This document shows positions 727-42,320 of a stretch of DNA of 44,458 nucleotides, piece by piece. A program made the position numbers and the translations under genes. Where the stretch lies: IMG/VR virus record IMGVR_UViG_3300010299_000011, positions 1-44,458 of that record; one strand, 5' to 3'. The notes under the pieces were generated by a model. That model saw only the letters and a program-made list of their open reading frames with translations. It was not told where the DNA came from and ran no database searches. Within the stretch, counting starts at the first letter, position 1. Each line of letters opens with the position of its first letter. Source of the DNA: a virus.

Positions 727-1487
727 AGGCAGTTCCTCCTTGCTTGAGCAGGGCGGTACTGCGCGCCTTCCTGGCGACGGGAGAACCAGTCGTAAAGAAA
801 CTTCGGCCAGTTGCGTTTTTTCTGCTTGGATGGGTGAGCGACAAGGTACTCATGGATGCGTGGGATTAATCCGTCTGCATCCACGGCCGGGAAAGCCCGC
901 CTCCAGCGTTCCCTGTCTTCTGCGGTGATGCCGGAGAATCCCGTCTCCAAATTCCAGGTGATGTGATACACCGGAGGCGGGCGAGTCGAAGACGAAGAAC
1001 GCCTAGAATCTCCGGTAGGAGATTCATTATCCCCCTTTAGGGGATTTGGTTTTGGTTTTAGTTTTGGTTTTGGTTTTAGTTGTGGGGTTCCATCAAGCTG
1101 AGGCGCATCAGCTTGATGATCAACTTGATCATCAACTTGATCATCAACGGACTTGCGGGTGCGAGCCTTGGCCGCACCGGCCACCCTGGCCTCGTACGCT
1201 TTGCAGGCTCTCACCCGAACTTTCTCCATTCGGGGGTGGGAGAGCCGCTCCTCTGATGTCCCCGCATCAAAGACCTGAAGCCGCTTGCGGATTACCGCCC
1301 AGTCCTCTTTGGGGATTCCGCCGGCAATCCGGCTGCACGCCTCGTAGTCGTTGGGCAAGCCACCCTCAGACCAAGCGAAACAGAGCAGACGGATGTAGGC
1401 GCCCAGCTGAGACTGGGTGAGGGATTGTGTGCTGACGACAAAGTCAGACACGTACAAAGGCATGTATGCCTGTACCTGAGATGCCAT
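723..1487 (-). CDS. DUF1376-family phage replication-region protein
   Basis: 254 residues. The start at 1487 (MASQVQAYMPLYVSDF) is chosen because GGAGG lies just upstream and the family motif begins there; the open frame extends further but upstream of a terminator. Residues 9-60 carry the DUF1376 pattern: MPLYVSDF, then LTQSQLGAYIRLL, then W..GGLPND. The family occurs beside phage replication genes and often plays a DnaD/replisome-organiser-like role, but its biochemistry is uncertain. The middle is low complexity: VDDQ/VDHQ repeats, then alternating Lys-Pro. The C-terminal part (about residues 170-254) looks folded, with Trp-rich segments. Confidence 0.8.
   Translation of the reverse strand: MASQVQAYMPLYVSDFVVSTQSLTQSQLGAYIRLLCFAWSEGGLPNDYEACSRIAGGIPKEDWAVIRKRLQVFDAGTSEERLSHPRMEKVRVRACKAYEARVAGAAKARTRKSVDDQVDDQVDHQADAPQLDGTPQLKPKPKLKPKPNPLKGDNESPTGDSRRSSSSTRPPPVYHITWNLETGFSGITAEDRERWRRAFPAVDADGLIPRIHEYLVAHPSKQKKRNWPKFLYDWFSRRQEGAQYRPAQARRNCL
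1046..1148. repeat. Short in-frame tandem repeats inside the DUF1376 gene
   Basis: Two microrepeats lie side by side. At 1113-1148 a 12-bp unit (TTGATSATCAAC) is repeated three times, encoding VD(D/H)Q units. At 1046-1080 a TTGGTTTT-type run encodes alternating Lys and Pro. Both keep frame and form the linker between the N-terminal DUF1376 domain and the C-terminal part. Length variation by slippage is likely. Confidence 0.8.
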
Positions 1488-39676: not shown

Positions 39677-40342
39677 TCACTCCTTACTGGCCAATGCCCG
39701 TGCATTGTGGATTGCGCGCCTTACCATCAGCTTTGCTGCTGACCTGAGGAACAGTAGGCCACGCTTGTCCGCTTCTTCCTTCAGCCAATCACAGATGGTT
39801 TCGATGTTCTCCTCACACCAGTCGCAGCCACGTGCGTCCATGGCCTTGGCGCGTTGATTGCAGGTGCAGTTGGGTGTGGCCTTTATGCCGATGAGCATCA
39901 GAAGTTTCTTTAACTCTGTGCCGGGGCCAGACGGTGGATCGATCAGAACCGTGCCGTTGTCTAAGCGTGTATACGACGACCCGCCGTAGCTGTCGTCTTC
40001 GCACTTGCTGCAGGTCACGTTCCACAGATTCGGAAAGCCACTCGGTGTTGCTGCGCATCTCTCGTCGTCCGGACAGGCGCCGTCACAGGCTTCTTCCGCT
40101 GTGGCCCCCGGAAGCAGTGAGCCAATCTCCGAAGGGCGTGCCACACATGTGCAGCCTTCAGGGCAGGGCGGGTCTTCATCGCCTCCACACGGGCCTGAAC
40201 AGCCGCAGGGGTTGGGGATGCAGGTAGTCCCCTTGCCCTGGAAGGCTCCCAAGGACTCCAGGCAATCTGCCTCCGTGAGGACGACACAACTGCCGTCCGG
40301 ATAACAGCAGGCTCCACAGCAGCAGGTACAGGTACAGGCCAT
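39677..40342 (-). CDS. Cysteine-rich planctomycete-type protein
   Basis: 221 residues, first gene of the late operon. Residues 1-60 are packed with cysteines (TCTCCCGACCYPDGSCVVL, ADCLESLGAFQGKGTTCIPNPC), a motif of repeat modules in planctomycete surface/secreted proteins. The C-terminal ~75 residues, GTELKKLLMLIGIKATPNCTC, then DARGCDWCEENIETICDWL, are a block I know from planctomycete genomes. No signal peptide is visible. A virion or host-interaction role is likely; disulfide or metal binding is expected. No ribosome-binding site; a hairpin lies 10 bases before ATG. Confidence 0.75.
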   Translation of the reverse strand: MACTCTCCCGACCYPDGSCVVLTEADCLESLGAFQGKGTTCIPNPCGCSGPCGGDEDPPCPEGCTCVARPSEIGSLLPGATAEEACDGACPDDERCAATPSGFPNLWNVTCSKCEDDSYGGSSYTRLDNGTVLIDPPSGPGTELKKLLMLIGIKATPNCTCNQRAKAMDARGCDWCEENIETICDWLKEEADKRGLLFLRSAAKLMVRRAIHNARALASKE

Positions 40343-40351
40343 AGGGGTGAA

Positions 40352-40710
40352 TGTCCCGGAAACAGGAAACCGGGCTCCGGGACACTGACTGGTGGAAGGC
40401 TCTGGTTGCCGGAACGGTCTTTAGGTGTCCCTCACCGACTGGCTCCTGCGGGGTGCGACAAGAAGGGACAGCCCGTGATGCCCCGCCGCTCAGAGAGCGG
40501 CAAGCTAACGGATTGTGGTGCCTGTCGGTTGACGACTGTACGGACAGGGTTCTGCTTCTGCTCGCCACACGCAGTGCCAGGGAGTTCTTTGGCCTCAGCT
40601 GCGAAATCAAAATCAGAGGCCCTTCGCTGAGCCGGCTCCACTCTGGCTGGTATTGCGACTCCCCTGCTTCGGCAGGGAGTCGCTGCGCACTCACCACTCA
40701 GACTGGTGAG
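40352..40710. other. Structured noncoding region upstream of the late operon
   Basis: Seven stem-forming pairs: 40352-40360/40376-40384 (9 bp, TGTCCCGGA/TCCGGGACA), 40485-40490/40496-40501, 40521-40526/40543-40548, 40591-40596/40616-40621, 40656-40667/40672-40682 (one bulge, loop UUCG closed by C-G on the plus strand) and 40690-40696/40704-40710. Frames crossing it lack convincing protein features. It could be a long 5' leader of the late operon or a plus-strand structured RNA; the UUCG loop favours the plus strand. Not covariation-tested. Confidence 0.5.
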
Positions 40711-40714
40711 GGGG

Positions 40715-40773
40715 TAGTAGGGGTATCTAATAAGAAGAGACTATAAGAATAACTATTAAATAACGTACCCGGT
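40715..40773. promoter_or_regulatory. AT-rich stretch next to the 21-bp repeats
   Basis: The most AT-rich block of the intergenic region (TAATAAG, CTATAAGAATAACTATTAAATAAC). It may be the late promoter zone or a duplex-unwinding element; no -35/-10 pair at a good spacing was found, though TATAAG and TAAATA occur. Confidence 0.35.
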
Positions 40774-40836
40774 TCGTCATATCTGACGACCTAATCGTCA
40801 AATATGATGACCTAATCGTCATATGTGATGACCTTT
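40774..40836. repeat. Three tandem 21-bp palindromic repeats (iteron/operator array)
   Basis: Units at 40774-40794, 40795-40815 and 40816-40836 share a core TCGTCA-N4-TGAYGA-CCTAA (last unit ends CCTTT). The first core is a perfect dyad (TCGTCATATCTGACGA); the others have one or two changes. A 21-bp period (two helical turns) puts all sites on one DNA face. Compatible with iterons of a replication origin or a cooperative repressor operator. Confidence 0.85.
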
Positions 40837-41151
40837 GGGGGTCCAAAGGGGTGAAAAAATCCAGGAGCGGGATTGACGAAATAGACGCTTCGGCTTGGGG
40901 GGCCACCCGGGGGCGGCTGTGCCTGGTTGTGTACGCTTGTGCATTGGTGTACGGGCGTTCCGCTTGTGACGTAACCCTAGTGCTGGCAAGGGGTTAGGGG
41001 TATTCGAATCCTTGCCGCAGTATAGGCCGTCCCTCCCGGGAGGGGTATTTTGCGGGGAAACAGCGATCTGCCGCCGCAGATTGTGCGACGCGGGCTCAGT
41101 GTGCATGCATCGCCTAGCCCCCTACTCCTGCCCCCCGACGCGCAAAAGAAA
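40837..41151. other. Gene-poor interval with inverted repeats
   Basis: No credible gene. Contains the inverted pair GGCAAGG (40985-40991)/CCTTGCC (41010-41016), palindrome CCCTCCCGGGAGGG (41031-41044), hairpin ATCTGC-CGCC-GCAGAT (41066-41081) and a duplicated GTGTACG. An open frame of 95 codons on the minus strand crosses the repeats but looks non-coding. Confidence 0.6.
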
Positions 41152-41179
41152 ACCCCCGGAGGACCGCTCCCCCGGGGGT
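41152..41179 (-). terminator. Rho-independent terminator for the 41.2-42.0 kb gene
   Basis: ACCCCCGG (41152-41159) pairs with CCGGGGGT (41172-41179). On the minus strand the hairpin is followed by TTTTCTTTTG, just past the stop at 41191. Good stem and U-tract, so it is a strong terminator. Confidence 0.82.
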
Positions 41180-41190
41180 AGGTCGGCAGA

Positions 41191-41952
41191 CTACTCCGCC
41201 GACTCTGTGCTCGCCGACTCTTTGACGGTGATCGCCCGGTAGACTATCTCCGGAAGCGTACCATCCGGATCGGGTCGGAGAATCCACCCGTGCCGGGCAT
41301 CAACACTGGTCATCGGCTGCTTGGCGGGTGGAAACGGGTCAGGCAGGGGGGCGGGAATCGGCCCCCGCACAATCCGCGCCCGGGTCACGGTTTCATTGAT
41401 GCCAGCCGCGTATGAGGCCAGCCTGTCCCGCGTAGTCCCGATACCCTTTGCCACTCGGTCTGCCGCCTTTCTGTGACAATGGGCCTCCAATCGTTCCGAC
41501 CATCCGGCGACGGCGGACGGGTCAGGCAGATTCCGCTGCTTGAGACGCGCCTCAGCCGCCAACCGTTCAGCCGTCGCAGCACGGTAGGATTCTCGGCGAG
41601 CATCTACTCTAGTTTGCCACCGCCGACGACGCAGCGTTGTCACCACCGACCACACTGCCGCCGCATGATCGCCCCGGGCAATCGCCTCCGATCCGGACAG
41701 CGACAGCCACTCGGCATAGGCCGTCGATGCGGCCTCCTCCGCCCGATCACGCAGCCCTCGCCGCTGTGCGGCCGTCCGGATCGGCTCCACGCCTTTTTCG
41801 GGAATATCGTAGGCCAATCGGGAGAAGGTACGGTAGGCCAAGCGGAAGAGCAGTTGCCACAACTCCGAGTGATACTCCGCCGGTAGGTCTGCCGCAGAGT
41901 AGGCTTGGCGGGGGAACGCGCAGCATGCGCCCGTATAACGTGCATCAAACAT
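41191..41952 (-). CDS. Hypothetical Arg-rich helical protein, divergently controlled
   Basis: 253 residues from ATG 41952 (GGAGGG 6 bases upstream). Helical and basic: ADLPAEYHSELWQLLFRLAYRTFSRLAYD, RDRAEEAASTAYAEWLSLSG, VVTTLRRRRWQTRVDARRESYR. The N-terminal YTGACCAF has a cysteine pair. Some resemblance to sigma-factor region 2-like helices is only impressionistic. It faces away from the early operon with its own promoter, palindromic operator and terminator, which fits a regulator. No family recognised. Confidence 0.6.
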   Translation of the reverse strand: MFDARYTGACCAFPRQAYSAADLPAEYHSELWQLLFRLAYRTFSRLAYDIPEKGVEPIRTAAQRRGLRDRAEEAASTAYAEWLSLSGSEAIARGDHAAAVWSVVTTLRRRRWQTRVDARRESYRAATAERLAAEARLKQRNLPDPSAVAGWSERLEAHCHRKAADRVAKGIGTTRDRLASYAAGINETVTRARIVRGPIPAPLPDPFPPAKQPMTSVDARHGWILRPDPDGTLPEIVYRAITVKESASTESAE

Positions 41953-41974: not shown

Positions 41975-41992
41975 AGTGAGCACGCGCTCACT
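41975..41992. promoter_or_regulatory. 18-bp palindrome, operator-like
   Basis: AGTGAGC-ACGC-GCTCACT is a perfect 7-bp dyad with a 4-base spacer, just after the predicted transcription start of the 41191-41952 gene and before its ribosome-binding site. Immediately right lies CGATATATCG (41995-42004), another perfect palindrome overlapping the -10. Placement suits repressor binding. Confidence 0.6.
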
Positions 41993-41997
41993 TTCGA

Positions 41998-42264
41998 TAT
42001 ATCGTATGCGGCAGGTCTGGTACTTGCAAGTTTATTTTCGGAAAAATCTTTCCGGCCAACTGTCCACTATATAACGTATGCCGTTTGCACTATTCCGAAC
42101 GGTACGACACTACCCCACACTCTGTGGTGTAGTTTGCATTCGCTCTGCAGTTTGCTCCCAAACGTGGGTCAAACTACAGCTGCATGCTGTCAGTAAACTT
42201 TTTTCAGAAAAAGTTTTCCGTCATCTGTCCACTATATAACGTATGCCACTCCGCATACGTTATA
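41998..42264. repeat. Repeated 12-bp motif TATAWCGTATGC and 23-bp direct repeat
   Basis: Motif copies: 41998-42009 (TATATCGTATGC), 42070-42081 and 42235-42246 (TATAACGTATGC), and 42253-42264 inverted. The last two form a perfect 12-bp inverted repeat with a 6-bp spacer. Copies two and three lie in identical 23-bp repeats (42060-42082 and 42225-42247, starting CTGTCCACTATATAACG), preceded by similar poly-A/T dyads. A 9-bp inverted repeat TGTAGTTTG/CAAACTACA spans 42128-42178 between them. Divergent regulatory region without a gene. Confidence 0.8.
42001..42029 (-). promoter_or_regulatory. Promoter for the 41191-41952 gene
   Basis: On the minus strand TTGCAA (42024-42029), exactly 17 bases, TACGAT (42001-42006). 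Both are close to sigma-70 consensus. The predicted start is a few bases into the flanking palindrome. The -10 overlaps the leftmost copy of the TATAWCGTATGC motif (41998-42009). Confidence 0.6.
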
Positions 42265-42320
42265 CACCACCAACCCCACTATTTACTATCTGCGCATGCA
42301 GGCAGTGAAAGGAGTGTGTT

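Follow-up and report, generated by a model that had tools for sequence, protein, structure and literature searches.

Tandem repeats that serve phage replication, regulation and packaging have been described in several forms. In the lambda-type origin, tandem imperfect palindromes lie beside an AT-rich block; lambda O binds iterons that are imperfect inverted repeats of 19 bp, and an AT-rich tract adjoins them within the O gene (PMC7466680). In cooperative phage operators (lambda OR and the activator arrays of late promoters), several dimer sites are placed about two helical turns apart, next to a promoter-like AT block. Lambda cosB carries three R sites as repeats beside the packaging site. 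The sub-sites of resolvase res sites are unequal in length and spacing, and parS-like partition sites are 16-bp palindromes. Finally, phages carry structured RNAs that are hundreds of nucleotides long, such as GOLLD, ROOL and the HNH-associated HEARO.

Here we consider a locus in a virus record of 44,458 bp (hereafter the window, meaning the whole stretch analyzed) that recalls several of these systems without coinciding with any of them. Its three-unit array shares tandem imperfect palindromes and an adjoining AT-rich block with the lambda-type origin, but it lies outside the O-like gene, has three units with a 16-bp dyad and a 21-bp period, and the O-like gene of this phage holds another such structure. 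It resembles cooperative operators in the number and spacing of its potential dimer sites and in its promoter-like AT block, although the site sequence was not matched to a known family and is not conserved in relatives. Like the R sites of cosB, it consists of three repeats beside a candidate packaging site; unlike them, the repeats are palindromic, evenly spaced, and absent in relatives that keep that site.

The repeat array and its surroundings

The array occupies positions 40774-40836 on the minus strand, as three direct repeats (40774-40794, 40795-40815 and 40816-40836) with an exact period of 21 bp and identities to unit 1 of 100%, 86% and 81%. Every unit, reading RGGTCRTCA..TGACGATTA in the late sense, contains the 16-bp dyad TCRTCA-N4-TGAYGA; all six half-sites are retained, and the central bases differ between units. 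The array has the highest TRF score of the 27 rows in the window (94, with the runner-up at 75). Its self-match of 83% is the best for any three-copy tandem in the window, and all of 100 random sequences generated by a Markov-1 model with the dinucleotide make-up of the window scored lower (maximum 68%). The exact 16-mer dyad occurs three times in the window, each time within the array. By the TRF result, the random-sequence control and the dyad count, the three exact-period palindromic units reported by a first-pass annotation of this DNA are confirmed as a real feature.

The same annotation placed the most AT-rich block next to the repeats, and this holds: no other 40 bp in the window are as AT-rich as positions 40724-40763 (17.5% GC), which adjoin the array. 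Based on composition and hexamers, we propose that 40724-40773 (minus strand) is the promoter region of a leader RNA and the late operon. There are TATAAT-like hexamers on the minus strand (TTTAAT at 40760 and TATAGT at 40745), and a search of the block for a sigma70 two-hexamer promoter gave no match. The motif ATAACGTA is found five times in the window, against 0.32 expected, with four of the five copies in the control region at 40.7-42.3 kb. One copy is in the AT block, at 40760, and because the early divergent promoters also carry this motif, we link the two. A promoter-like 40-bp block with ATAACGTATGC is duplicated at 42043-42082 and 42208-42247 (also 42256-42263), and its second copy forms a perfect 12-bp inverted repeat.

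The flanking genes are separated by 848 bp (40343-41190), so the 850-bp gene-free region described earlier is right as to length, but it is not empty, as two features lie inside it, a structured RNA and an element conserved in relatives. In the late sense, the order is the gene for a 253-aa protein, its terminator, the conserved element, the array, the AT block, the structured RNA and the late operon. The first gene of that operon (39677-40342, minus strand) encodes a Cys-rich N-terminus and has a start that is conserved in relatives. The 253-aa gene (41191-41952) was said to be divergently regulated; it is not divergent, because it shares the minus strand with the late operon, and a terminator search places an intrinsic terminator just after it (41179-41152, minus strand). 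The true divergent promoter region is at ~41990-42320.

The 253-aa protein, proposed earlier as the factor that binds the repeats, belongs to a divergent family with members in ~20 relatives. One member matches Sigma70_r2 with an E-value of 0.2. For the model of a relative's protein, Foldseek ranks a gp79-dependent RNA polymerase promoter complex first among PDB entries (E 0.22, TM 0.24). An hhalign comparison of the family with sigma factors of a Pirellulaceae MAG scores 24.4 at a probability of 5.9%, whereas 40 column shuffles reach no more than 13.1. The sigma-region-2-like signals are weak and suggestive only, and they are not the signature of a dimeric repressor.

The array as a probable operator

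In the reading we favor, which is somewhat more probable than not, the array is an operator specific to this lineage, at which a dimeric DNA-binding protein would control a promoter in AT-rich DNA pointing leftward into the leader RNA and late operon. The array has the repeated dyads at helical-phase spacing expected of an operator: a dyad suits a dimer, and a period of two turns suits dimers that sit side by side. From this we infer three dimer sites on one helix face (21 bp being two turns), which a phage or host regulator would bind cooperatively. The bound dimers would control a putative promoter in the abutting AT block, and the putative transcript, running leftward, would cover the structured RNA (40700-40345) before entering the late operon. 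The terminator of the upstream gene, the downstream RNA with its compensatory changes and the late operon that follows support this arrangement. Because the AT block has no -35-like hexamer, an activator is mildly favored over a repressor. A Pfam scan of part of the ORFs of the window, which represents about three-quarters of the genome, detected no helix-turn-helix repressor. Counting against an operator is the geometry itself, given that imperfect-palindrome iterons with an AT-rich block fit a lambda-type origin too.

Comparison with relatives

A search with the major capsid protein (MCP) identified 148 relatives, many of them ~60 kb in length, and four relatives of about this size are closed by overlaps of 124-127 bp. 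Thus, the record studied here lacks roughly a quarter of the genome, an arm of ~16 kb when set against these relatives. Of 50,697 phage records, none matched the MCP.

The array is missing in L008 (MCP 92%), the closest relative that spans the site, and was not found in the syntenic region of ~50 relatives. Among 15 long relatives none has the array, and isolated, scattered 16-mers occur in 3 of the 15. No viral or genome contig contains a tandem pair of the array motif (searched as an exact pattern, in a comparison that may have left out records very close to the window). Given its absence from L008, the ~50 relatives and the contig collections, the array is unlikely to be a central origin or master operator of a conserved kind. 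The first-pass annotation, which had proposed a central control element of this phage and a search of relatives as the check, is contradicted at this point, since close relatives lack the repeats and a conserved role is not borne out. For the same reason, purifying selection on the array is not demonstrable. The same intergenic region carries unrelated repeats in other genomes (GTGGACAA nine times in L008, and GCGTACAC-type repeats in L024, L026 and L058), as expected for fast-changing operators. The nine GTGGACAA repeats of L008 (~1155-1245) form three groups of three, immediately behind the upstream gene's terminator-like stretch. Repeats of GTGTAC, considered as a family-wide feature, are not general.

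What the family does conserve is a single-copy noncoding element at 40837-40912 (minus strand), which directly abuts the array at the early/late junction and has C-runs on both sides of its core, GTCAWWYCCNCYCCTGGATTTTTTC (40877-40853). It is present in ~50 relatives, none of which has the array. In 14 of 15 long relatives it occurs once and in the late sense, as judged against the MCP strand. A gene of the HNH/endonuclease VII type overlaps TerL, and arrangements of this sort are linked to cos. Four contigs start 22-32 bp before the element core, within a poly-C tract; circular assemblies also exist. A gene of this type beside TerL is a reported setting of phage packaging machines (Kala 2014, listed in PMC9611059). 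Our guess for the element is a packaging site of the cos or pac type, favored because of its single copy at the early/late junction, the endonuclease gene overlapping TerL and the clustered contig ends, although it may instead be a promoter or an origin.

If the array is an operator, it would be a phage switch of an ordinary kind that evolves fast. It marks where early and late genes meet in a large family of uncultured, freshwater-type phages, and the conserved single-copy element and the neighboring RNA, which has no match in Rfam, can now be tested and are better targets than the repeats.

A structured RNA ahead of the late operon

In this phage, the late operon has as its leader a structured RNA (~40345-40700, minus strand) with homologs in 17 other records. 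Window positions 40345-40720 (minus strand) align to L008 at 69% identity, the counterpart being L008:1642-1987. Their consensus fold has 77 pairs, 12 of which are changed on both sides compared with 5.9 expected (0 of 500 shuffles), with the caveat that the fold was derived from the same two sequences on which it was scored, which favors it. The alifold z-score for this pair is -4.2. A coding leader was considered and rejected, as L008 has in-frame stops and the substitutions are spread evenly over codon phase (27/33/34).

A profile search brought together 18 sequences, including the window and L194, L205, L218, L222 and L137. In the 13 records for which the position was computed, the RNA is 40-46 kb downstream of the conserved element and on the opposite strand; the three flanks inspected, read by eye, each show it next to small HNH- or endonuclease VII-like ORFs. 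Nearly all of the 18 sequences fold the 5' hairpin, and the distal stems are changed. A segment of ~12 nt occurs twice in the 5' part of the RNA, ~45-74 nt apart (e.g., within ~40700-40600 of the window). Its copies match at 7.1 of 12 positions within genomes and at 4.1 between genomes (0 of 10,000 permutations, uncorrected for kinship). The fold of the whole alignment of 18 RNAs is poor (-10 kcal/mol) and the single-RNA folding z-scores average -1.0, so the fold is supported for the window/L008 pair and for the 5' hairpin alone.

The RNA resembles GOLLD, ROOL and HEARO in being structured and phage-borne, and its place beside small HNH/endonuclease VII-type ORFs in the relatives examined recalls HEARO in particular. 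It differs from all three in that neither the window nor the segments of seven relatives match Rfam at the gathering score. Rfam scans by E-value with the RNAs of two relatives returned nothing convincing, and a tRNA/tmRNA scan found none. Tentatively, this could be a new family of phage noncoding RNAs of ~350-400 nt that, in this phage and L008, heads the late operon rather than occupying its usual place, and that here would be controlled from a private operator of three sites, with the RNA and the structural genes co-regulated as a result.

Alternative explanations for the array

The first-pass annotation left the choice between origin and operator open. The dyad, spacing and AT block fit the operator half, whereas the origin half is weakened by the comparisons that follow. 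As an origin, the array would be three iterons for an initiator beside an AT-rich unwinding block. Its 3 x 21 bp fall in the 18-22 bp range of iterons, the 17.5% GC block adjoins them, and the geometry is like that of the lambda O iterons (PMC7466680). In several complete relatives, the cumulative GC skew has its minimum near the control region. However, the array is neither in nor beside an initiator gene, and the window has no match to the DnaA box consensus TTWTNCACA. GC skew had been suggested as a check, but in the window it tracks gene strand alone, and we rejected it as origin evidence because of this confounding. A rival candidate lies at 1045-1148 (minus strand). Here, within the O-like gene for a DUF1376 protein (723-1742 of the linear record), 12-bp palindromic tandem repeats (1106-1148) accompany an AT-rich tract (1045-1085). 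DUF1376 genes of other phages adjoin DnaB or DnaA-like genes, and in two of the four examined the domain is closely followed by short tandem repeats. The repeats, the AT tract, these gene neighbors and the lambda geometry together favor 1045-1148 over 40774 as a lambda-type origin, without proving it. No DUF1376 relatives were found in viral contigs, and a search of 18 relatives gave no detection, as did its control. With relatives also lacking the array, we regard an origin at the array as unlikely.

Terminase-binding sites of the cosB kind, flanking a cos formed by the abutting element, are somewhat less probable still. The single-copy, late-sense element, the endonuclease gene adjoining TerL and the contig ends clustered just upstream would all suit them, but repeats of this kind should persist in every genome that retains the packaging site, and L008 and other relatives retain the element and lack the array. 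Moreover, circular assemblies with 124-127-bp overlaps exist, and poly-C tracts can break assemblies. To a recent neutral tandem duplication we give a similarly small chance: the array is lineage-specific, as a functionless duplication would be, but all six half-sites have been kept while the unit centers vary. A resolvase res site or parS-like partition site seems very improbable. The genome arm lacking here encodes a resolvase-like serine recombinase in two relatives (identified by eye), and the array has the 16-bp palindromic form of parS; against this, it does not vary in unit length and spacing as res sub-sites do, it is not conserved in the recombinase-bearing relatives, and no partition gene was noticed among the ORFs read.

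As to the host, MCP matches in the genome collection are one contig from a Pirellulaceae MAG and one from an Ignavibacteriales MAG, which is not decisive. L163 (JAGYIQ010000016.1; MCP 81%), a contig assigned by binning to a Pirellulaceae MAG, is a possible hint of the host.
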